From Faecalibacterium prausnitzii (GTDB taxonomy: Bacteria > Bacillota > Clostridia > Oscillospirales > Ruminococcaceae), in the NCBI RefSeq assembly GCF_003324185.1, contig NZ_PXUP01000003.1:62001-126000 (forward strand): DNA of 64,000 nt, read 5' to 3'. Positions 18,937 through 32,610 of this stretch are shown here, in pieces. The notes under the pieces are model-generated. The model saw only the letters and a list, made by a program, of their open reading frames with translations. It was not told the origin of the DNA and searched no databases. The translations under genes and the position numbers were made by a program. How positions within the stretch are numbered: the stretch's first letter is position 1; every line of letters begins with the position of its first letter.

Positions 18937-18969
18937 GGACTTTTAACGGAAACAGGACATATTTTTACG
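18937..18969 (+). promoter_or_regulatory. Possible AraC-type regulator site upstream of uxuA
   Basis: AAACAGGACAT (18950-18960) is an 11-base match to the element in front of the GH28 and TRAP genes. Two half-sites (TTTTAACG at 18941 and TTTTTACG at 18962) are 21 bases apart, two helical turns. Unlike the other two copies it is not next to a visible -35 on the plus strand; the uxuA promoter is 150 bases downstream. Confidence 0.35.
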
Positions 18970-19057: not shown

Positions 19058-19112
19058 TGGCATTTTGCCATTTTTGTGTAAAGTATACAAGAATAAACAC
19101 AAAAAAATGGCA
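19058..19112. promoter_or_regulatory. Inverted repeats upstream of the uxuA promoter
   Basis: TGGCATTTTGCCA (19058-19070) is a perfect short palindrome. TGCCATTTTTGTGT (19066-19079) is inverted at 19097-19112 with two extra A residues. A GTATAC palindrome lies between them. The array ends 10 bases before the -35 and looks like an operator for a dimeric regulator of the GntR or LacI type. Which protein binds is unknown. Confidence 0.45.
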
Positions 19113-22706: not shown

Positions 22707-22720
22707 AAGATATTATCTGG

Positions 22721-22880
22721 GGTGTATCTGAAAAGTCGAAAATTTAGTCTATTTCTACAAGCACAGCTGGCTTTTGCGTGAATCAGCCTTGAAATCCACA
22801 AAGGATTCCTGCGGCTATTTGCCTTAAATCCCGCTTGTGCTTGCGAAATATTCGTCATTTTCTTTGTTTTCAGATACACC
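22721..22880. repeat. 160-base palindromic element (MITE-like)
   Basis: GGTGTATCTGAAAA (22721-22734) is perfectly inverted as TTTTCAGATACACC (22867-22880). The similarity continues inwards: each arm is 45 bases and ends at AAGCACA (22759-22765) or TGTGCTT (22836-22842). A further small hairpin (ATCCACAAAGGAT) sits in the middle. There is no ORF of its own and no clear target-site duplication. It looks like a non-autonomous repeat; as RNA it would fold into one long hairpin in the leader of the kinase mRNA. Confidence 0.7.
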
Positions 22881-22904
22881 TTACGAAAAAGGGGGAAGCC
22901 TTGC

Positions 22905-24434
22905 ATGGAAAAGCGCAACTGGAAGCACATCGTTACGCTCAAGCAGCGCATGGTGCTGTGTCTGGCAGCATTTTTTGCGGCCTTTGCATTGCAGCTTGCC
23001 CTGAACGGCTATCAGGCACGGGCGGTGCAGCAGGTGCAGGACGACCAGATGGGCAACTTTAACGCCATCAGCCGCTTTCAGGGCGGTGTGGAAAGCTCCA
23101 TCAGCATTCTGGAAGCGTACCGCTGGGAGAACGGCGAGACTGAGGAAATGCTGGAAAAGCTTCAGGCAGCCTGCTCCACCAGCAACGCATGGCTGTGGCG
23201 CATCCGATCCAATATGGACGGCTTGCAGAACGTCAGCGATGAGCAGTGGGTGCTGTACGGCGCGGTGGAGACCACCTACGGCAGCTACAACACCCTGCTG
23301 GAAGAGCTGGAAGGCTACCTTTCCAGTGGGCAGGAAGCAAAGGCTTCCCAGCTGTACTACAACAAGGTCTCGGTCTGCGGCGGGTATCTGAGCCAGTACA
23401 CCATGCAGCTGCTGAAAGCCTCGATCTTGGATGCCCAGACTACTTACACCGAGATCTCGGAGCTGGGCGAGCGGATCGCCCTGATGCAGATCGTGGTGGT
23501 GGCACTGTGCGTGGCGCTGGGCTGTGCCTCCGGTCTGATGGTCATGCGGCTGCTGACTCCGGTGTCTCAGATGATCGTGGCCTCCCGCGCTATCAGCCGC
23601 AGCCAGTTCGATACCCCGGACATCCCGCTGCCCAAGCAGCCGGAGATCGGCCAGCTGGCGGAGTCCTTCAACCGCATGAAGCACTCTATGGCGCAGCAGG
23701 TGAACACCCTGCAGGAGAAAAACGAGATCGAGCGGGAGCTGCATCGCCAAAAGACCGAGGCGCTGGAACTGCAGAACCGCATGGAGCGCAGCCGGTTGCA
23801 GCAGCTGCGCAGCCAGATCGACCCGCATTTTCTGTTCAACACCCTGAACGTCATCCAGCAGATGGCGGGCACAGAGTCCGCCTACCGCACGCAGGCGCTC
23901 ATCATGGCGCTTTCCCATCTGCTGCGTTACAGCCTGATGAGCAACGATGAGCAGGTGCCCCTCTCCCGGGAGGTGCGCGTTGTGGATGAGTACTATTCCA
24001 TCTACCATGTGCGCTTTGGCGACCGGGTGCAGATGGAGTGGGCGTTCTCGGATTCACTGGACCTGACCGAGACGATGGTGCCGTCCTTTATCTTGCAGCC
24101 CATCGTGGAAAACGCTTTCAAGCACGGCATCTGCCCCAAGGAAGAGGGCGGCGTGGTGCGCATCCGCATGATCCCCCTGCGGGAAAAAGGTCTGCTGTGC
24201 ATCCGGGTACTGGACAACGGCATGGGCATTGAGCCGGAGCAGCTGCAGCAGCTGCGCACGGCACTGGAGCAGCCCGCGCCCCGCTGGGAGCATATCGGTA
24301 TTTATAACGTGGCCGCCCGCCTGCGGCTGCTGGATGCCCGCTGCCGGGTGGTGGTGCGCTCCCGGCCGGGGCGGGGAACTGCGGTGATCCTGTATCTGCC
24401 GCTGGTGGAGAATGAGGAGGAATTTGAGGAATGA
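22905..24434 (+). CDS. Sensor histidine kinase, YesM/LytS type
   Basis: Membrane kinase of 509 residues. Two membrane segments (about 15-36 and 190-214) enclose an extracytoplasmic sensing region of about 150 residues, rich in Gln and coiled-coil-like. A HAMP segment follows (about 215-270). The phospho-acceptor is His308 in QIDPHFLFNTLN, typical of the His_kinase subfamily that pairs with AraC-type regulators. The ATPase N-box and G-box (VENAFKHGI, DNGMGIEPEQ) are present. The ATG has AAGGGGGAAG upstream. The last four bases overlap the regulator gene. Inferred role: sensing a uronate through the lipoprotein encoded third. Confidence 0.93.
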   Translation: MEKRNWKHIVTLKQRMVLCLAAFFAAFALQLALNGYQARAVQQVQDDQMGNFNAISRFQGGVESSISILEAYRWENGETEEMLEKLQAACSTSNAWLWRIRSNMDGLQNVSDEQWVLYGAVETTYGSYNTLLEELEGYLSSGQEAKASQLYYNKVSVCGGYLSQYTMQLLKASILDAQTTYTEISELGERIALMQIVVVALCVALGCASGLMVMRLLTPVSQMIVASRAISRSQFDTPDIPLPKQPEIGQLAESFNRMKHSMAQQVNTLQEKNEIERELHRQKTEALELQNRMERSRLQQLRSQIDPHFLFNTLNVIQQMAGTESAYRTQALIMALSHLLRYSLMSNDEQVPLSREVRVVDEYYSIYHVRFGDRVQMEWAFSDSLDLTETMVPSFILQPIVENAFKHGICPKEEGGVVRIRMIPLREKGLLCIRVLDNGMGIEPEQLQQLRTALEQPAPRWEHIGIYNVAARLRLLDARCRVVVRSRPGRGTAVILYLPLVENEEEFEE

Positions 24435-25246
24435 TTCGTCTGTTGATCGCGGATGATGAGAGAATGGAGCGGGAGGCGCTGGCGGATATCGTCATGCGCC
24501 GGTTCGAGCATGAGGTGACGGTGGAGATGGCGGAAAATGGCCGCAAAGCCGCCGACACCGCTGTGCTCTGGGAAGCAGACCTGATTTTGATGGACATTGA
24601 GATGCCGGGCATGAACGGCCTGGATGCCGCCCGCGCGGTGCTGGAGCAGCGGCCGGAGTGCAAGGTGATCTTCATCACGGCGTACAGCCTGTTCCAGTAC
24701 GCCCACGAGGCGGTGCATCTGGGTGCCTGCGACTATCTGCTGAAGCCGGTGGACCCGGACGAGACCGAGGCCGCCATCCGCCGCGCTATCCGGCAGATCG
24801 AGGCCGGCCGCCGCTTGGCCGAGCTGGCTGCGGAAGCCCCGGAGCCGGAAACCGCCCCGGAGCAGGAGACCGAGCCCGCCGGGGAAGGGGAGAGCGACCG
24901 CAACGCACTGGTGATGGACCATGTGCGCAAGTATATGGAAGATAACTATATGGCAGACCTCTCGCTGGACAGCGTGAGCGAAATTTTGCACATCAGCCCG
25001 GCGTACCTTTCGGCGCAGTTCAAAAAATACCAGAAGATGAATTTTCTGGACTGTCTGACCGAGCTGCGCATCAACGCAGCTAAAGAACTGCTGGCCGACC
25101 CCTTCCGCTCCGCAGCGGAGGTAGCCTCTATGGTGGGCTACGAGGACGCCAGTTACTTTGCCCGCGCCTTTAAAAAGCGCACCGGCATGACCCCCACCCA
25201 GTACCGGAAGGAAGCGGCAAAGGCAGCCCGGGAGGCGCGGCTGTGA
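24431..25246 (+). CDS. Response regulator with AraC-type DNA-binding domain
   Basis: Protein of 271 residues. The receiver domain (1-120) has the acidic pocket IADDE and phospho-acceptor Asp55 in LMDIEMPGMNG, with Lys in LLKPVD. An acidic Pro/Glu-rich linker (about 135-155) leads to two helix-turn-helix units of the AraC family (about 165-265; VASMVGYEDASYFARAFKKR is the signature region). Start and stop overlap the kinase and lipoprotein genes by four bases each. It is the best local candidate to bind the repeated element upstream of the GH28 and TRAP genes. Confidence 0.95.
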   Translation: MIRLLIADDERMEREALADIVMRRFEHEVTVEMAENGRKAADTAVLWEADLILMDIEMPGMNGLDAARAVLEQRPECKVIFITAYSLFQYAHEAVHLGACDYLLKPVDPDETEAAIRRAIRQIEAGRRLAELAAEAPEPETAPEQETEPAGEGESDRNALVMDHVRKYMEDNYMADLSLDSVSEILHISPAYLSAQFKKYQKMNFLDCLTELRINAAKELLADPFRSAAEVASMVGYEDASYFARAFKKRTGMTPTQYRKEAAKAAREARL

Positions 25247-26247
25247 CCCGCCGTCAGCTGCTGCGTCTGCTTGCGGCAGCCCCGGCGCTGGCAGTTACAG
25301 GCTGTACGGCGCAGTCTGCTTCTTCGCAGCAGGAGAAGCCGCTCATCCTGCGCTATGCGGAGAACCAGCCGGAGGACTACCCCACCAGCAAGGCGGCAAA
25401 GGCCTTTGCCGAGCTTGTGGCGCAGCGCACGGGCGGCCGGGTGAAGGTGCTGGTTTACAGCGGGGCAGAGCTGGGCGCAGAGCAGAGCGTCATCCAGCAG
25501 ATGCAGTTCGGCGGGGTGGATTTTTCCCGCGTGTCCCTGAGCCAGCTGGCAGAGTACGAGCCGGAGCTCAGCGTGTTGCAGCTGCCTTACCTGTACAGCG
25601 ATGCCCAGCAGATGTGGCGGGTGCTGGACGGCAGCATCGGGGATGAGTTTCTGGCCATACTGGACGGGATGGACTTAGTGGGGCTTTCGTGGTTCGATGC
25701 CGGTGTGCGCAGCTTCTACACCCGGGAAAAGGTGACCGGGCTGGATGATTTGCAGGGGCTGACCATCCGGGTGCAGGAGTCGGACATGATGAGCGACATG
25801 ATCACCGCACTGGGTGCAAAGCCGGCGCAGGTGGTGTACAGCAAGGTATATGCCGCCCTGCATAACGCCGAGATCGACGGGGCAGAGAACAACTGGCCCA
25901 GCTACGAAGTGATGGGACACTACGAGGTGGCGCCTTTTTTCCTGAAGGACGAGCACACCCGGGTGCCGGAGGTGCAGCTGGCCAGCCCGGCGGTGATGGA
26001 AAAGCTTGCCGCATTGGACGAGAGCTTCCCGGAGGTGATCCGTGCCTGCGCCCGGGAGAGCGCACAGACAGAGCGGGAGCTCTGGGCACGGCGGGAGGCG
26101 AACGCAGAGCAGAATATGCGCAAGCGAGGCATCTGCGTCACCGAACTGGACGAGGCCGAAAAAGCCCGCTTCCGCGCAGCGGTACAGCCCATGTACGACC
26201 GGTTCCGCAGCCACGCCAAACTCATCCAGCGGATCCGGGAGAGCTGA
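25243..26247 (+). CDS. TRAP-type solute-binding lipoprotein, probable sensor component
   Basis: DctP-family binding protein of 334 residues with a twin-arginine-like start (TRRQLLRLL) and a lipobox (AVTGC, Cys about 20). The family arginine that binds the substrate carboxylate is in LTIRVQES, and EIDGAENNWPSYE resembles TRAP proteins known for hexuronates. A second DctP (29555) belongs to the transporter operon. This copy is translationally coupled to the kinase and regulator (GTG start overlapping by four bases). I infer that it presents ligand to the kinase rather than feeding transport. It could also be an alternative binding protein. Confidence 0.85.
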   Translation: MTRRQLLRLLAAAPALAVTGCTAQSASSQQEKPLILRYAENQPEDYPTSKAAKAFAELVAQRTGGRVKVLVYSGAELGAEQSVIQQMQFGGVDFSRVSLSQLAEYEPELSVLQLPYLYSDAQQMWRVLDGSIGDEFLAILDGMDLVGLSWFDAGVRSFYTREKVTGLDDLQGLTIRVQESDMMSDMITALGAKPAQVVYSKVYAALHNAEIDGAENNWPSYEVMGHYEVAPFFLKDEHTRVPEVQLASPAVMEKLAALDESFPEVIRACARESAQTERELWARREANAEQNMRKRGICVTELDEAEKARFRAAVQPMYDRFRSHAKLIQRIRES

Positions 26248-26266
26248 AGAACAAGATATACGAAAT

Positions 26267-26310
26267 AACTCGTCTCTATGTGATATATCAGTTTAGGGAC
26301 GAGTTTTTTT
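26267..26310 (+). terminator. Terminator of the two-component operon
   Basis: AACTCGTC (26267-26274) and GACGAGTT (26298-26305) form the stem, followed by a run of T. It separates the sensory trio from the GH28 gene. Confidence 0.75.
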
Positions 26311-26376
26311 GCGAACATTTTTCGGCAAGCTCGACAATATCCCCCAGGCGAACTTGTTGAATATGCACAGATACGT

Positions 26377-26410
26377 TTTCACTTTTTTGCAAAAAACAGG
26401 ACATTTTATC
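26377..26410 (+). promoter_or_regulatory. Predicted response-regulator site upstream of the GH28 gene
   Basis: AAAAACAGGACATTTT (26392-26407) is identical to the word upstream of the TRAP operon. A weaker upstream half-site (CACTTTTTTG, from 26380) lies about two helical turns away. The identical word starts 26 bases before the -35 hexamer in both promoters, the position expected of an AraC-type activator contacting RNA polymerase. Confidence 0.6.
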
Positions 26411-26417
26411 AATCCTC

Positions 26418-26446
26418 TTGATGGCTAAAATCTTTTGCGTTAGAAT
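26418..26446 (+). promoter_or_regulatory. Promoter of the GH28-type gene
   Basis: TTGATG (26418-26423), a 17-base spacer and TAGAAT (26441-26446), 92 bases before the start codon. Confidence 0.6.
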
Positions 26447-26537
26447 GAGGCCACGAGCAATCAGGCCATGCAAAAACGCCTAAATGTACCCTATCAAGAT
26501 TCAGATCGTGCAATGCAAAAAAGGAGGAAATTTGGTT

Positions 26538-29240
26538 ATGTTTTCCAAAAAGATCTCGCGCCGCAGCTTTCTGAAGGTCAGTGCTGTGACCACCGCCATG
26601 GCCGCCATGGGCCTGCCTGCCTTTGCCGCAGAGGACACGGCAGAGGAGAACTGCTTCCAGACCCTGAACATCCCCCGGGCCACCGGCAGCACCGTGGACA
26701 AAAGCGTCCTGCTGGACGAGAGCCGCCTGTACCTCATCACGGATTTTGGGGCTGTGTCGGAGGGAGACCCCGTCCAGAACACTAAAGCCATCAACGCCGC
26801 CATCCAGGCTGCCAGTGAGGCCGGCGGCGGCACCGTGGTGGTGCCGGCAGGTGACTTTAAGAGCTACACCATCCGTCTCCAGAGCGGCGTCAACCTTCGC
26901 ATCGACGCCAACGGCATCATCCGGGCTGCCCGGGCAGACCTGTACGACTGGTATGGCAACCAGACCATGGTGGGCGAGGGCGGAAACTACGATGAGCCGG
27001 AAGTGAACCTCTACGCCGGTCTCCAGGACCACGGCCACACCTACTTTGCCAACAGCCTGTTCTACGCCGCCGACAAGCACGACATCATGATCTACGGCGA
27101 GGGCCTCATCGACGGCAGCTACATGGACGACACCGGCACCCTCATCAATGTGCTGTCTGGCAACGACCCCTCCAACCCCAAAAACCGCACCGACCGGGGC
27201 TACAGCTCCACCTGGTACGGCAACAAGGCCATTGCACTGGTGCGCTGCGAGAATGTGGTGCTGGACGGCATCCGCATCCTGAACGGCGGCCACTTTGCCA
27301 TCATCGCTGAGGGCACCCGGAACATGACTGTCAACGACCTGATCGTGGACACCAACCGGGATGCCTACAATATCGACTGCAGCCAGGACGTTACCGTCAG
27401 CAACAGCCACTTCAACTCCCTTACGGACGACGCCATCGTCATGAAGGCTTCCTACGGTGCCGGCGTGTTCATGCCCACCCAGAACGTCCTGATCGAGGAC
27501 TGTGTGGTCAGCGGCTACGATGCCGGTTCTGTGATTACCGGAGCCTGCACTACCGATAAGATCGTGGCCACCGACGCCTGCGGTCCCACCGCCCGTGTCA
27601 AGTTTGGCACCGAGTCCACCTGCGGCTACCACACCGTCACCATCACCCGGGTCCGGTTCGAGCGTTCCCGTGGCTTCTGCATGGAGGCCGTGGACGGCAG
27701 CTCCCTCACCAACATCGTGATGACCGACTGCACCATGGACACCGTTTCCTCCTCTCCCATCTTTATTCGGGTAGGCGATCGTGCCCGGTACCCCGTCACC
27801 GGCCACACCACTGAGCAGGCTATCAACGCCGCCAACGATGTGCGTCTGGACAATTCCGGCTGGGTGCTGCCCAACCGTGCCGAGTATCAGCTGTACCCCG
27901 TGGCCCGCTACAGCCCCTCTTATAATAAGAGCAAGACCGTCTCCATCGATGGCGTCTCCTCCTTTAAGGTGGTAGACCCTGCCAACCCCACCCGGATCAA
28001 CAACGCCAACCTAGCAGAGATCGACGGCAAGCTGTACCTCTACCGCTGGGATGATGCCCAGCACCAGTATGTGCCGGATATGACCCGGGAGATCAGTCGG
28101 AAAGACGCTGTCTACTACGCCAACGCCACCGCTGCCAAGGACCTGGCCAGCGTCAGCAATGTGGAAATCAGCAACATCCGCATCACCAACGTAGATCCCC
28201 GGTACCCCATCCTGCTGGAGGGCCTGGTGGACAGCAAGGTGAAGAACGTGATCCTGCGGAACATCTCGGTGCAGTACCGGGGCGGCCTGTCTCTCCAGGA
28301 GGCTGTGGAACAGCGGCAGCTGGGCACCTACTGGGTCTACTCCCAGAGCGGCTCTGCCCCCACCGTGCAGAAACTGCCTTGGCTGGTGAACACCTTCTTC
28401 AGCAAGTGCGAGGGCCTGCTGCCCCGTGTGGCCTGGAAGAACGGCACCTGGGTAGACGACCCCTACAACGTACCGGAGATGGTAGCCGAGTACCCGGAGC
28501 CCTCCATCCTGGGCATCCTGCCGGCCTACGGCATCTACGCTCGTCACGTAGAGGGTCTGGTGCTGCAGAATGTGGCCCTGAACTATGTGATCCAGGATAA
28601 GCGTCCGGCTATCGTGCTGGATGACGTTTCCAACGCCGACCTGCGTACCGTGGCCGCCAAGACCGCTCTGGGCGTCAAGGCTGTAGTCACCGTGACCAAC
28701 CACTACAAGCGTCATGTGGGCAACGAGTATGTGCCTGAGGAGCCCTATTTCACCACCACCTGCGAGAACTTGAAGCTGGGCCTGCTGAGCCGTGAACAGG
28801 TCACCGTGGATACCCCGGCACCCGGCACCCCGGCGGACAGCCTCTATGGCGACATCCGCCTGCCCATCCCGGAAAATGGCTATCAGTTCGCCACTAAGAC
28901 CCAGGACTATCCCCTGCCTCTGACGGTGCACCGCCCCTACTTCAGCCACATCGGGGACCAGACCCTCCAGTTGGGCCAGACCCTGACCCTGACTGTCTCG
29001 GGCCGGAACCCGGCCAACGGCGTCCGCACCACTCAGCCCCAGCCTGCTGCCGTCATCGAGGCTCTGGACGGCGGCCTGACCTACGGCACCGCCGGTCTGC
29101 TGCCTCTGGGCGCATCCTTTGACGCCGGTTCTCACACCCTCACCTTTACCCCCAAGGCCAAGGGCACCTATAAGGTCACCTTTACCCTGGACGACGATGT
29201 CATCCCCGTAAGCAAGACCGTTAAGATCACCGTAGTGTGA
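26538..29240 (+). CDS. Secreted GH28-type right-handed beta-helix enzyme
   Basis: Exported protein of 900 residues with a twin-arginine-like signal (SRRSFLKVSA, then AFA). The beta-helix domain starts FGAVSEGDPVQNTKAINAA, the classic opening of GH28 and pectate-lyase-like enzymes. NSLTDDAIVMK holds the paired aspartates of GH28, and a GYHTVTITRVRF strand repeat follows. The segment YPEPSILGILPAYG is shared with large GH28-like proteins of gut bacteria. A C-terminal Ig-like domain begins about residue 810 (HIGDQTLQLGQTLTLTV). No cell-wall anchor is seen. A role in pectin or another uronate polymer is inferred from the family and neighbours. AAGGAGG lies 11 bases before the ATG. Confidence 0.82.
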   Translation: MFSKKISRRSFLKVSAVTTAMAAMGLPAFAAEDTAEENCFQTLNIPRATGSTVDKSVLLDESRLYLITDFGAVSEGDPVQNTKAINAAIQAASEAGGGTVVVPAGDFKSYTIRLQSGVNLRIDANGIIRAARADLYDWYGNQTMVGEGGNYDEPEVNLYAGLQDHGHTYFANSLFYAADKHDIMIYGEGLIDGSYMDDTGTLINVLSGNDPSNPKNRTDRGYSSTWYGNKAIALVRCENVVLDGIRILNGGHFAIIAEGTRNMTVNDLIVDTNRDAYNIDCSQDVTVSNSHFNSLTDDAIVMKASYGAGVFMPTQNVLIEDCVVSGYDAGSVITGACTTDKIVATDACGPTARVKFGTESTCGYHTVTITRVRFERSRGFCMEAVDGSSLTNIVMTDCTMDTVSSSPIFIRVGDRARYPVTGHTTEQAINAANDVRLDNSGWVLPNRAEYQLYPVARYSPSYNKSKTVSIDGVSSFKVVDPANPTRINNANLAEIDGKLYLYRWDDAQHQYVPDMTREISRKDAVYYANATAAKDLASVSNVEISNIRITNVDPRYPILLEGLVDSKVKNVILRNISVQYRGGLSLQEAVEQRQLGTYWVYSQSGSAPTVQKLPWLVNTFFSKCEGLLPRVAWKNGTWVDDPYNVPEMVAEYPEPSILGILPAYGIYARHVEGLVLQNVALNYVIQDKRPAIVLDDVSNADLRTVAAKTALGVKAVVTVTNHYKRHVGNEYVPEEPYFTTTCENLKLGLLSREQVTVDTPAPGTPADSLYGDIRLPIPENGYQFATKTQDYPLPLTVHRPYFSHIGDQTLQLGQTLTLTVSGRNPANGVRTTQPQPAAVIEALDGGLTYGTAGLLPLGASFDAGSHTLTFTPKAKGTYKVTFTLDDDVIPVSKTVKITVV

Positions 29241-29266
29241 TCCTGTCGGTTTTCTGCCTGCTCATA

Positions 29267-29306
29267 GGCCCCGGCTGGTTTCTCCCACAGCAGACCGGCC
29301 GGGGCC
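29267..29306 (+). terminator. Hairpin after the GH28-type gene
   Basis: GGCCCCGGCTGG and CCGGCCGGGGCC form a near-perfect GC-rich stem, but no T-run follows. It may stabilise the mRNA end or terminate weakly. The 314-base gap to dctP otherwise holds only the dctP operator and promoter. Confidence 0.5.
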
Positions 29307-29408
29307 AGAGCAGTTTCGGAGCTACTTGAACCGTAAGTTGTATCCAACGTGTCGGTAGTGTTGCACAAACAAGATAGAAAACGGCTGTGCAATATGGCAA
29401 AAACTATC

Positions 29409-29446
29409 TTGACATTCTTTCGAAAAACAGGACATTTTTCGAAAGC
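29409..29446 (+). promoter_or_regulatory. Predicted response-regulator site upstream of the TRAP operon
   Basis: AAAAACAGGACATTTT (29423-29438) matches the GH28 copy exactly. Half-sites GACATTCTTTCG (29411) and GACATTTTTCG (29431) are 20 bases apart. The region also reads as an 11-base inverted repeat, CTTTCGAAAAA and TTTTTCGAAAG, with a 7-base centre. It ends a few bases before the -35. Confidence 0.65.
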
Positions 29447-29448
29447 CC

Positions 29449-29477
29449 TTGTTTCATTTCGGAAAATTTGCTAAAGT
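29449..29477 (+). promoter_or_regulatory. Promoter of the TRAP transporter operon
   Basis: TTGTTT (29449-29454), a 17-base spacer and TAAAGT (29472-29477). The -10 is weak, which fits a promoter that depends on an activator. Confidence 0.55.
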
Positions 29478-29554: not shown

Positions 29555-30649
29555 ATGAAAATGATCTCTCGTCGTAGCTTTATGGCCGTTGCCGGTGCAG
29601 CTACCGCTGCTGTTGCTCTGACCGCCTGCGGTGGTTCCAAGAGCGGCTCCACTTCTACCGCTGCTTCCACCTCTACCGCAGCTTCTGCTTCTGCTGCTGC
29701 CGGTGATGCAGCTGCTGCTGCCAACGATCCCAAGGTGACTCTGGTCTACGCCGAGGTCAACCCGCTGGATACCATCGTTGGCCAGACCGGTTCTCACTTC
29801 AAGGAGAAGGTCGAGGAGCTGAGCGGCGGTTCTGTGGTCGTCGATGTGCAGGCTTCCGGTGTTCTGGGCTCTGAGAACGACGTTCTGGACGCTATTCTGG
29901 GCGGCTCTACCTCCATCGATATCAGCCGTATCTCTGCTTTCGCTCTGACCAGCTACGGCTGCAACAAGTCTAAGCTCCTGTCCATCCCCTTCACCTTCAA
30001 CAACCGCGCTCACTTCTGGAACTTCGCCAACAGCGATCTGGCTCCTGAGTTCCTGAACGAGCCCCAGGAGCTGGGTCTGCCCGTTCGCGGCCTGTTCTAC
30101 GGCGAGGAGGGCTTCCGTCACTTCTTCACCGTCAAGCCCGTTGCAACCATCGATGATCTGAAGGGCATGAAGCTGCGTGTGTCCAACGACCCTGTTATGA
30201 ACGGCATGGTCGAGGGTCTGGGCGCTAACCCCACCGTCGTTGCTTTCGGCGAGCTGTACAGCGCACTGCAGACCGGCGTTGTGGATGGCGCTGAGCAGCC
30301 CATCGCAAACTACAAGTCCAACGCTTTCCCCGAGGTTGCTAACAACCTGATCTTGGACGGCCACACTCTGGGCGCTGTGCAGGCTGTTATCACCGACAAC
30401 GCATGGGGCAAGCTGACCGCTAACCAGCAGGCTGCTGTTATGGCTGCTGCTGCCGACACCCAGAAGTTCAACGCTGATCTGTCTGAGACCGCTGAGAACA
30501 AGGTTCTGGAAGAGCTGCGCTCCTCCGGCTGCAACGTTGTGGATGTGGACGACAAGACTCCTTGGCAGGAAGCTTGTGCCAAGGTCATCAAGGACAACAC
30601 CTCTGATCAGGCTGAGCTGTACCAGAAGCTGCTGGACATGAAGGCATAA
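29555..30649 (+). CDS. dctP: TRAP transporter solute-binding lipoprotein
   Basis: Extracytoplasmic substrate-binding protein of 364 residues for the TRAP importer encoded next. The start SRRSFMAVAG resembles a twin-arginine signal, followed by a lipobox (LTACGG). A Ser/Thr/Ala-rich linker of about 40 residues then leads into the DctP domain. KLRVSNDP holds the conserved carboxylate-binding arginine, and GVVDGAEQPIANYKS is the typical hinge segment. Codons favour GCT, GTT and TCT, as in L21/L27, so high expression is likely. AGGAGG is 12 bases before the ATG. Confidence 0.95.
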   Translation: MKMISRRSFMAVAGAATAAVALTACGGSKSGSTSTAASTSTAASASAAAGDAAAAANDPKVTLVYAEVNPLDTIVGQTGSHFKEKVEELSGGSVVVDVQASGVLGSENDVLDAILGGSTSIDISRISAFALTSYGCNKSKLLSIPFTFNNRAHFWNFANSDLAPEFLNEPQELGLPVRGLFYGEEGFRHFFTVKPVATIDDLKGMKLRVSNDPVMNGMVEGLGANPTVVAFGELYSALQTGVVDGAEQPIANYKSNAFPEVANNLILDGHTLGAVQAVITDNAWGKLTANQQAAVMAAAADTQKFNADLSETAENKVLEELRSSGCNVVDVDDKTPWQEACAKVIKDNTSDQAELYQKLLDMKA

Positions 30650-30746: not shown

Positions 30747-31268
30747 ATGCCGAAAATCTTTACCACTCTGGATAAGATCAGACCGGCGTACGACTTTACC
30801 TACAAGGTGGTTCTGTTCATCTGCAAGATCCTGCTGATCGCAGATATCCTCATTACCACGATGTCGGTCATTGGCCGTTACGTCCCCTTTATCCCGGACC
30901 CCTCCTGGTCTGAGGAGGTCGTTCTGACCTGCATGAGTTACATGGCTGTGCTGAGCGCTGCGCTGGCCATCCGCCGCGGCGCACACATCCGCATGACTGC
31001 CTTTGATATGTACCTGCCCAAGAAAGTGGTCAAGGCGCTGGACATCCTGTCTGACGTGGCCGTGATGATCCTTGGTGTGGTGATGATGGCGGTCGGCTGG
31101 AACTACGCCACCACGCTGGGCGGCCGTGGCTTCTATGTTTCCATGCCCTGGCTGAGCCGCTTCTGGATGTACTTCCCGGTGCCGCTGGCCGGCGTTGCCA
31201 TGGTCATCTTCGAGATCGAGTCTCTGTATAACCATATCAAGAGCTTTTTTGTAAAGGAGGAAATGTAA
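30747..31268 (+). CDS. dctQ: TRAP transporter small membrane subunit
   Basis: Protein of 173 residues with four predicted membrane segments, the size and topology of DctQ. SWSEEVVLTCMSYMAVLSAA is the typical DctQ stretch near the second helix. It joins DctM in the sodium- or proton-driven importer. ATG preceded by ATGGAGGA. The stop lies 1 base before the dctM start. Confidence 0.93.
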   Translation: MPKIFTTLDKIRPAYDFTYKVVLFICKILLIADILITTMSVIGRYVPFIPDPSWSEEVVLTCMSYMAVLSAALAIRRGAHIRMTAFDMYLPKKVVKALDILSDVAVMILGVVMMAVGWNYATTLGGRGFYVSMPWLSRFWMYFPVPLAGVAMVIFEIESLYNHIKSFFVKEEM

Positions 31269-31269
31269 T

Positions 31270-32610
31270 ATGACAGTTCAGACACTGGCAATCATTGTCC
31301 TTCTTGTCAGCTTTTTTGTTATGATCTTCCTGCGCTTCCCCATTGCATACGCCGTTGGTCTGTCCAGCGTGCTGTGCATGCTGGTGCAGGGTCAGGCACT
31401 GACCGACGTCTGCCGCCTGATGGTCAAGGGCATCTCCTCCTTCAGCCTGATGGCTGTGCCGTTCTTTATCACCATGGGCGTGCTCATGGGCTCCGGCGGC
31501 ATCTCTGAAAAGCTGATCGCACTGGCTGACGCCTGCGTGGGCTGGATGCGCGGCGGTATGGCCATGGTCAACATCGTGGCTTCCTACTTCTTCGGCGGCA
31601 TTTCCGGTTCTGCTTCCGCCGATACCGCTTCCATCGGTTCTATCATGATCCCCATGATGGTGGATCAGGGCTACGGCGCAGACTTCTCCACCGCTGTTAC
31701 CATCACCTCCTCCTGCGAGGGTCTGCTGGTTCCCCCCAGCCATAACATGGTCATCTACGCTACCACCGCCGGTGGTATCTCCGTGGGCAGCCTGTTCCTG
31801 GCCGGCTACCTGCCCGGCGCTCTGCTGGCTATCGTGCTGATGATCGGCTCCTACATCATCTCGGTCAAGCGCAACTACCCCAAGGGTGATCCCTTCAGCA
31901 TCAAGGCTTTTGTCAAGCAGCTGGGCACTTCCATCTGGGCACTGGCCGCTGTCATCATCGTGGTGTTCGGCGTTGTCGGCGGTGTGTTTACCGCTACCGA
32001 GTCCGCTGCTATCGCCGTTATCTACTCTCTGCTCGTTTCCGTGTTCGTCTATAAGGGTCTGGACTGGAAGGGCGTGTGGCACGCTCTGGACGAGTGCGTC
32101 AACACCCTGTCCATCGTGCTGATCCTGATCGCTACCTCTGCAGTGTTCGGCAACTGCCTGACCATGCTGCATGTGCCTGATCTGGCAGCAACCGCCATCA
32201 CCGACCTCACCGATAACCCCTACATCATTGCACTGCTCATCGACCTGATCCTGCTGGTGCTGGGCATGATCATGGATATGGCTCCCATCATCCTGATCGC
32301 TACCCCCATCCTGCTGCCCATCGCCACCTCCATCGGCATCGATCCCATCCAGTTCGGTATCATCGTGGTTCTGAACTGCGGCATCGGTCTGCTGACTCCT
32401 CCCGTTGGCTCCGTTCTGTTCATCGGCTCTGCCGTTGCAAAGCGTCCCATGGAGAAGGTAGTCAAGGCGACCCTGCCGTTCTACCTGTGCATGTTCATTG
32501 CACTGCTGCTGCTGACCTACATCCCCGACATCAGCCTTGCTATCCCCAAGCTGCTGGGCGGCTATGTAAGTCCCATTGCAAACCCGCTGGGTCCTGTGTT
32601 CATCCACTAA
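31270..32610 (+). CDS. dctM: TRAP transporter large membrane subunit
   Basis: Polytopic protein of 446 residues with a dozen or so hydrophobic segments, the DctM permease that moves the substrate. Signature stretches include FFGGISGSASADTASIGSIM and GLLTPPVGSVLF. AAAGGAGG lies 7 bases before the ATG at the end of dctQ. The substrate is inferred to be a hexuronate from the neighbouring uxuA-uxuB, the GH28-type enzyme and the shared regulatory word. Confidence 0.95.
   Translation: MTVQTLAIIVLLVSFFVMIFLRFPIAYAVGLSSVLCMLVQGQALTDVCRLMVKGISSFSLMAVPFFITMGVLMGSGGISEKLIALADACVGWMRGGMAMVNIVASYFFGGISGSASADTASIGSIMIPMMVDQGYGADFSTAVTITSSCEGLLVPPSHNMVIYATTAGGISVGSLFLAGYLPGALLAIVLMIGSYIISVKRNYPKGDPFSIKAFVKQLGTSIWALAAVIIVVFGVVGGVFTATESAAIAVIYSLLVSVFVYKGLDWKGVWHALDECVNTLSIVLILIATSAVFGNCLTMLHVPDLAATAITDLTDNPYIIALLIDLILLVLGMIMDMAPIILIATPILLPIATSIGIDPIQFGIIVVLNCGIGLLTPPVGSVLFIGSAVAKRPMEKVVKATLPFYLCMFIALLLLTYIPDISLAIPKLLGGYVSPIANPLGPVFIH

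Follow-up and report, generated by a model that had tools for sequence, protein, structure and literature searches.

A conserved direct-repeat site before a GH28-type gene and a TRAP operon in Faecalibacterium prausnitzii, most likely read by a neighbouring three-component system

A 64,000-nucleotide stretch of the Faecalibacterium prausnitzii genome (assembly GCF_003324185.1, contig NZ_PXUP01000003.1, positions 62,001 to 126,000), here called the window, carries the same word, AAAAACAGGACATTTT, before two transcription units. One encodes a GH28-type enzyme and the other a TRAP transporter. Each copy of the word forms the latter half of a direct repeat of 20-bp spacing next to a promoter. We regard the site as a real, conserved operator-promoter unit, which most likely belongs to the three-component system encoded just upstream. 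In our full reading, to which we assign a probability of roughly 0.6, the repeat is the operator of the AraC-type response regulator at 24431-25246, the system senses a hexuronate, and the regulator activates the TRAP operon and the GH28 gene in the class II manner.

The proposed mechanism has four steps. A DctP-type probable lipoprotein (25243-26247) would capture an extracellular hexuronate, most likely galacturonate or glucuronate. The loaded binding protein would signal through the histidine kinase (22905-24434). The phosphorylated regulator would bind the pair of half-sites, the second of which adjoins the -35, and the bound regulator would recruit RNA polymerase to the weak TRAP and GH28 promoters. 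From the sequence patterns described below we infer that the regulator is phosphorylated, that it binds the site, that it activates and does not repress, and what the inducer is. The original prediction spoke of a two-component system. The kinase and the regulator are indeed present, but the binding-protein gene lies in the same operon, and the locus looks more like a three-component system of kinase, AraC-type response regulator and TRAP-type binding protein.

The repeated site and its locus

A scan of the window places exact copies of the word at 26392-26407 and 29423-29438. At both copies the -35 starts 26 bases past the start of the word (TTGATG at 26418-26423 and TTGTTT at 29449-29454), and a 17-base spacer leads to TAGAAT at 26441-26446 in the GH28 promoter and to TAAAGT at 29472-29477 in the TRAP promoter. 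These coordinates confirm the original description of the word at 26392 and 29423, its distance of 26 bases to the -35 and the two 17-base spacers. The half-site spacing of 20 described for the second copy also holds, but the 21-22 bases given for the first copy do not, since 20 fits best there too. In the GH28 promoter, CACTTTTTTGCAAA (26380-26393) and GACATTTTATCAAT (26400-26413) agree at 9 of 14 positions at a spacing of 20 and at no more than 6 of 14 at the other spacings tested (15-19 and 21-25). A spacing of 20 was the best of the 11 tested (15-25) in 15 of 16 promoters and was tied in one. Direct half-sites about two helical turns apart that adjoin the -35 have the layout of an AraC-type class II operator. 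The elements of the two sites, all on the + strand, are as follows.

26380-26413, + strand: proposed GH28 operator, with its half-sites at 26380-26393 and at 26400-26413, spaced 20 bp (E = 6.1e-7 with model R2, described below)
26418-26446, + strand: promoter of the GH28 gene, TTGATG, 17 bp, TAGAAT, read from the sequence
29411-29444, + strand: proposed TRAP operator, with its half-sites at 29411-29424 and at 29431-29444, spaced 20 bp
29449-29477, + strand: promoter of the TRAP operon, TTGTTT, 17 bp, TAAAGT

The word is rare when it is exact. With up to three mismatches the window holds three matches, against a mean of 0.16 and a largest count of 2 in 100 shuffles. Across the whole genome (3,031,166 bases, 76 contigs) the two exact copies are the only matches with 0-1 mismatch. 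Allowing up to two mismatches gives four matches, the two exact copies and two with two mismatches, whereas the reversed-pattern control gives eight, and therefore only the exact copies stand out.

The genes and other features around the two sites are these.

22905-24434, + strand: sensor histidine kinase (His_kinase PF06580, HAMP and HATPase_c, from Pfam), first gene of the regulator operon
24431-25246, + strand: AraC-type (YesN-like) response regulator, the proposed binder of the site (Pfam Response_reg and HTH_18)
25243-26247, + strand: dedicated TRAP-type (DctP, PF03480) binding protein, a probable lipoprotein and the proposed third sensing component (Pfam and solved relatives)
26263-26309, + strand: terminator-like inverted repeat with a T run (16-nt arms, 88% complementary), between the regulator operon and the GH28 unit
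26538-29240, + strand: GH28-type enzyme of 900 aa with a Tat signal, nearest to the rhamnogalacturonidase BT4146 model (Pfam/NCBIfam)
29267-29306, + strand: terminator-like inverted repeat past the GH28 gene (13-nt arms, 92% complementary)
29555-30649, + strand: TRAP binding protein of the DctP family, a different protein from the proposed sensor (Pfam)
30747-31268, + strand: TRAP small membrane subunit DctQ (Pfam)
31270-32610, + strand: TRAP large membrane subunit DctM (Pfam)

The kinase and regulator genes overlap by 4 bases, as do the regulator and binding-protein genes. The two hairpins flank the GH28 gene, so the GH28 gene and the TRAP operon are probably separate transcription units, with a site before each. 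The two DctP proteins of the locus are 28% identical to each other. The regulator had been called the only one of AraC type in the window, and a tblastn search with its own helix-turn-helix domain as the only query agrees, with no other match at E <= 1. Just upstream of the kinase gene, at 22720-22882, lies an element some 160 bp long and bounded by the inverted ends GGTGTATCTGAAAA / TTTTCAGATACACC, which occurs in this genome (G000) and in G029. By eye it was not seen in G009 or G017; similar ends occur in L236. It looks like a small non-coding mobile element.

Conservation across the genus and candidate targets

The distribution of the site was followed in 31 genomes of the genus, including the present one. 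Orthologues of the regulator (at least 55% identity) occur in 15 of the 31, again counting our own, and the TRAP binding protein (at least 76% identity) in 20, among them all 15 with the regulator. The gene order kinase, regulator, binding protein is identical in 14 of 14 fetched relatives that carry the regulator, and the trio directly precedes the TRAP genes in 12 of these. In G009 the GH28 gene lies between the trio and the TRAP genes, and in G010 the contig ends just past the apparent TRAP start. In a family sample, relatives of the sensing protein at E <= 1e-60 occur in 8 of 247 genomes.

The site follows the regulator. Model R1, a 47-bp sequence model built from 12 sites and run over the 31 genomes, recovers a site before the TRAP genes in 14 of the 15 genomes with the regulator and in none of the five that have the transporter without it (G001, G004, G005, G007 and G011); the TRAP promoter is different in all five. 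The 16 matches at E <= 1e-10 are 14 TRAP promoters and the two GH28 promoters of G000 and G009, and the next best match has an E of 1e-4 (genome-wide model searches scored 150 candidates per genome). The original prediction proposed a search for the word upstream of both genes in related genomes; the modelled site lies before TRAP in 14/15 regulator genomes and before the GH28 gene in 2/2 (G000 and G009).

Conservation is highest in the half-sites and the -10 region. The TRAP upstream regions of 13 genomes retain both half-sites, CCTTG and the -10, and that of G016 is diverged yet recognisable. The distance from GGACATTTT to TTG is 19 in 13/13 TRAP promoters, and that to TAAAGT is 42 in 12 and 41 in one. 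Among eight divergent genomes, identity is 88-89% in the half-sites and 96% in the -10 region, as against 58% in the spacer and 35-48% in the DNA between 110 and 25 bases upstream. In a tree, the five genomes without the regulator cluster with G016, which keeps the regulator and has a diverged site (support 100/100). The regulator is present in all of the tree's other 15 rows, one of them from another genus, and the pattern suggests joint loss of the system and its site as the simpler reading.

A second model, R2, was built from eight TRAP sites only; no GH28 gene contributed to it, and neither did the present genome or G009. Applied to the present genome, it places the TRAP site first (56.4 bits) and the GH28 site second (30.9 bits, E = 6.1e-7); the next place has 15.8 bits. 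The GH28 sites of G009 and G002 score 36.3 and 22.6 bits; one of the eight training sites of R2 was the TRAP site of G002. Across the stretches taken from the five genomes without the regulator, the only match at E <= 1 reaches 10.2 bits on the strand opposite to TRAP, in L111. Autoregulation of the kinase operon was considered and rejected, as R2 finds only the two known sites across the window (E <= 1). A two-box pattern gives 16 places with 0-1 mismatch in the 31 genomes, 13 before TRAP and three before GH28-type genes; at three mismatches there are 16 further places versus 8 for the control. Three regulator-less genomes share a relative of the pattern with three mismatches (G005:C102:8341, G007:C8:8679 and G011:C74:10890). 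An R1 match in G010:C96 (E = 4.7e-4), which precedes a gene that by eye resembles the phosphoglycerate-mutase type, was set aside as probable chance.

The GH28 gene of the window appears to be an add-on rather than a core target, because it is present in only 2 of the 31 genomes, G000 and G009. Its product reaches 427.8 bits with NCBIfam NF049898 (rhamnogalacturonidase BT4146; cut-off 500, E = 4.3e-128) and 21.9 bits with Pfam GH28 (cut-off 22.9), and its Tat signal is above the cut-off. It is best described as GH28-like, not as a certified member of the family. By eye, a GH28 cassette with its own terminator and promoter (26248-29330) replaces the terminator of the sensing-protein gene in G000 and G009, and the arrangement is uninterrupted, without the cassette, in G029 and G017. 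Only one of the 247 genomes of the family sample, our own, has this GH28 gene. A pattern-seeded scan of named genome contigs returned three loci, from F. prausnitzii, Lachnospiraceae (56%) and Gastranaerophilales (54%). The Lachnospiraceae gene closely trails another open frame, and its sole model match (14.5 bits) lies inside the gene on the opposite strand.

A different GH28 gene carries the site in another genome. The best R1 match outside the training set (E = 1e-4) is in G002, upstream of a 772-aa protein (L170:2868-5186, minus strand) that scores 98.3 bits with PF00295 against a cut-off of 22.9 and belongs to the family. Its best NCBIfam model is alpha-galacturonidase, at 266 bits against a cut-off of 800, and its Tat-signal match is below the cut-off (20.8 versus 22.7). 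The gene lies about 37 kb from the system, and its product is 27% identical to the GH28 protein of the window over the matched part. Its promoter, by reading, has the same geometry: GGACATTTTT, 19 to TTGAAA, 17 bp, TATACT. Homologues of this protein (41-43%) occur in the regulator-less G005, G007 and G011, and no such operator was seen by eye upstream of those in G005 and G007. In G012 a GH28 gene (G012:C4:999-1502, 82.8 bits) lies convergent near the far end of the TRAP operon; it has no R1 site of its own, and the TRAP site is about 5 kb off. With that TRAP site excepted, a comparison of the lists by eye found no R1 match within 5 kb of the other GH28 places.

The 20-bp direct repeat, at an unchanged distance from the promoter, precedes the genes of two GH28 enzymes that are only distantly related and belong to different lineages. 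We think it about an even chance that a uronate-sensing three-component system with a TRAP-type protein repeatedly captures horizontally gained secreted pectinases in the genus, one operator linking sensing, uptake and polymer cutting.

The uxu genes are not convincingly part of the regulon. The third window match to the word, with three mismatches, lies at 18948 before uxuA. It is missing, by eye, in six other genomes with uxuA in the fetched stretch, and R2 reports nothing there (E <= 1, window), so uxuA was rejected as a target. The theme of the uronate or pectin regulon first proposed is supported by the GH28 site of G002 and the pocket residues described below. In 7 of the 15 regulator genomes, our own included, uxuA is found next to the system, inside the fetched stretch, and in G002 and G013 it lies within about 12 kb on the other side. 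The uxuA promoter region has a conserved element of its own at 19080-19099, AAAGTATACAAGAA and the following bases, seen in 10 of 16 uxuA upstream regions read and unrelated to the operator. One idea is that control is handed over to a uronate repressor in regulator-less genomes. No motif common to their uxu and transporter promoters was found by eye in 14 of 26 uxuA upstream regions, the 12 on the minus strand being left out.

Signal, regulator and competing explanations

The sensing protein (25243-26247) resembles TRAP proteins that bind hexuronates, such as Bpro_3107, Apre_1383 and STM3169. Its best solved relatives are 4n8y, 4ovr, 4x8r, 4p1l and 4mhf, and its structure model (pLDDT 87.3) matches the same group. 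The consensus of the aligned sequences has VTGC at the N-terminus, which we take to be a lipobox-like motif, and the protein is a probable lipoprotein. According to PMC7660916, the hexuronate pocket of STM3169 includes N35, Q36, E74, R150, R170, N210 and D237, and Bpro_3107 (4MHF) binds D-glucuronate and D-galacturonate while having alternative residues at some of these positions. A comparison by residue number, with STM3169 unaligned, fits six of the seven to N41, Q42, E80, R156, R176 and N216 at a constant offset of 6. These six are invariant in 15 sensing-protein sequences. The binding protein of the transporter keeps R188 and R208, has Gln where hexuronate binders have Asn, and is without the Asn-Gln pair, which is also missing in 4n8y and 4ovr. 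It may carry a related but different acid; its structure model is poor (pLDDT 39.7). A DctP-like open frame with one in-frame TGA in G028 (G028:C1:799731-800483) is perhaps a pseudogene.

The local regulator could own the operator and still answer to a pectin oligomer or another sugar acid in place of a hexuronate monomer. We judge this unlikely, but it is the alternative that survives best. The candidate target enzymes resemble rhamnogalacturonidase and alpha-galacturonidase, both below the model cut-offs, and the departure of the transporter's binding protein from the hexuronate pocket points the same way. The six invariant pocket residues of the sensing protein argue for the monomer instead, as does the presence among its close solved relatives of Bpro_3107, a binder of D-glucuronate and D-galacturonate according to PMC7660916.

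A transcription factor encoded elsewhere might read the site while the neighbouring system controls something else. The TRAP site of this genome doubles as a perfect 11-bp inverted repeat that could suit a symmetric dimer, and the genome has a second response regulator of the same type (G000:C11, 36% identical). The inverted repeat is perfect in only 3 of 13 TRAP promoters (G000, G009 and G017), with 8-10 of 11 positions in the other ten and 5-6 of 11 at the three GH28 sites; it was rejected as the functional element. The TRAP genes of the C11 system are preceded by another direct repeat, ACAAAATCGTACTG / ACAAAATAATCCGG, spaced about 20 bp by eye. Site and adjacent regulator occur together in 14 of 15 genomes, and both are missing in the five others with the transporter. 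All 13 genomes with a strong site share the segment SPAYLSAQFKKY, presumably the regulator's first recognition helix. It carries a single change in G016, where the site is diverged; in G010, where no model finds a site at TRAP, its sequence is NASYFSSLFKRS. That helix and site change together suggests a tie between regulator and site, and a different factor appears quite improbable. Conservation, co-absence and this covariation support two parts of the original prediction, the layout of an AraC-type activator and the tie to the local regulator. Loci of the second kinase/regulator/TRAP kind were seen at L160 (G000:C11:9000-27000), L166, L167 and L168. In these loci the TRAP operon ends with a gene whose product has 50-51% identity to the sensing protein, which suggests that two binding proteins per system are a recurring design.

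That the two promoters resemble each other through duplication or chance in A/T-rich DNA, with no specific regulator, is very improbable. In favour of it, CTTG and A/T-rich surroundings are common to both promoters, a copy of the TRAP promoter may have been taken up by the GH28 cassette, and the short core word is common across the genus. Against it, the word and half-sites are kept while spacer and flanks diverged, the 16-base word seldom recurs exactly in the genome, and the G002 GH28 promoter has the same boxes in different surroundings.

Several points weigh against our reading. A/T runs weaken the repeat, and at the TRAP site of G002 a spacing of 20 is tied with another. Promoter elements are partly kept simply as promoters. 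R1 was trained on the very sites that it recovers best, and the two-box pattern, designed after all three promoter types were known, tests specificity and not discovery. Among the matches listed, the 13-base core word with up to one mismatch occurs in 31 of 31 genomes, and its exact form, ACAGGACATTTTT, is found in regulator-less ones (G001:C62:464 and G003:C1:1902501); only the two-box site is therefore diagnostic. The co-absence of regulator and site may count as a single event, because the five genomes that lack the regulator group with G016 in one clade. G010 keeps the regulator, yet no model matches at its TRAP genes (R1 genome-wide, R2 on L116). The helix covariation comes from two genomes in which the whole DNA-binding domain is diverged (75 of 110 positions identical in G016 and 66 in G010, versus 94-110 in the others), and for that reason it is suggestive and not proof. 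On the side of the ligand, the seventh pocket residue, Asp237 of STM3169, falls on Glu (E243) in the same residue-number comparison, and the divergent pocket of the transporter's binding protein means that the cargo may differ from the sensed ligand. That the adjacent response regulator acts on this site is, taken alone, highly probable. The full statement stands lower because it includes the ligand, with one pocket residue different and STM3169 unaligned, and because the helix covariation is confounded by divergence.

Comparison with known systems

Faecalibacterium is among the commonest butyrate-producing bacteria of the gut. Control of its pectin or uronate feeding was not the subject of any of the titles and abstract openings listed in literature searches, and none of those listed dealt with a DctP-type sensing protein with a YesM/YesN-like pair or with this operator. 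If the reading is true, a TRAP-type sensing protein joins the known three-component systems. An operator, its regulator and a likely inducer would help to predict which strains switch on pectinases, and the regulator-less relatives with an altered promoter would offer a natural comparison.

The proposed system combines features of several known ones. Class II activators of the AraC family, such as AraC itself, use a pair of direct half-sites spaced by about 20 bp, of which the inner adjoins the -35. In the present regulator the partner of the DNA-binding domain is a receiver domain and not a sugar-binding domain. In XylFII-LytS-YesN of Clostridium beijerinckii, an extracytoplasmic binding protein reportedly activates a kinase paired with an AraC-type response regulator, as proposed here; that protein is said to be an ABC-type sugar-binding protein that serves D-xylose and an ABC transporter, whereas the transporter here is of the TRAP type. 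CuaD-CuaS-CuaR of Ruminiclostridium cellulolyticum (PMC10384115) likewise has a lipoprotein binding protein beside a kinase/regulator pair, and the transporter that it controls has its own separate binding protein. CuaD, however, belongs to an ABC-type system for cellobiose, while the present locus has two binding proteins of the TRAP type (DctP) and, probably, a hexuronate as signal. In BctC-BctDE of Bordetella pertussis (PMC5812351), the binding protein of a tripartite secondary transporter takes part in signalling, and the two-component system that receives the signal switches on the operon of the transporter, much as is proposed here. BctC is of the TTT family (TctC), recognizes citrate and does both jobs as one protein, whereas the present locus has a second protein for the purpose, encoded in the regulator operon.

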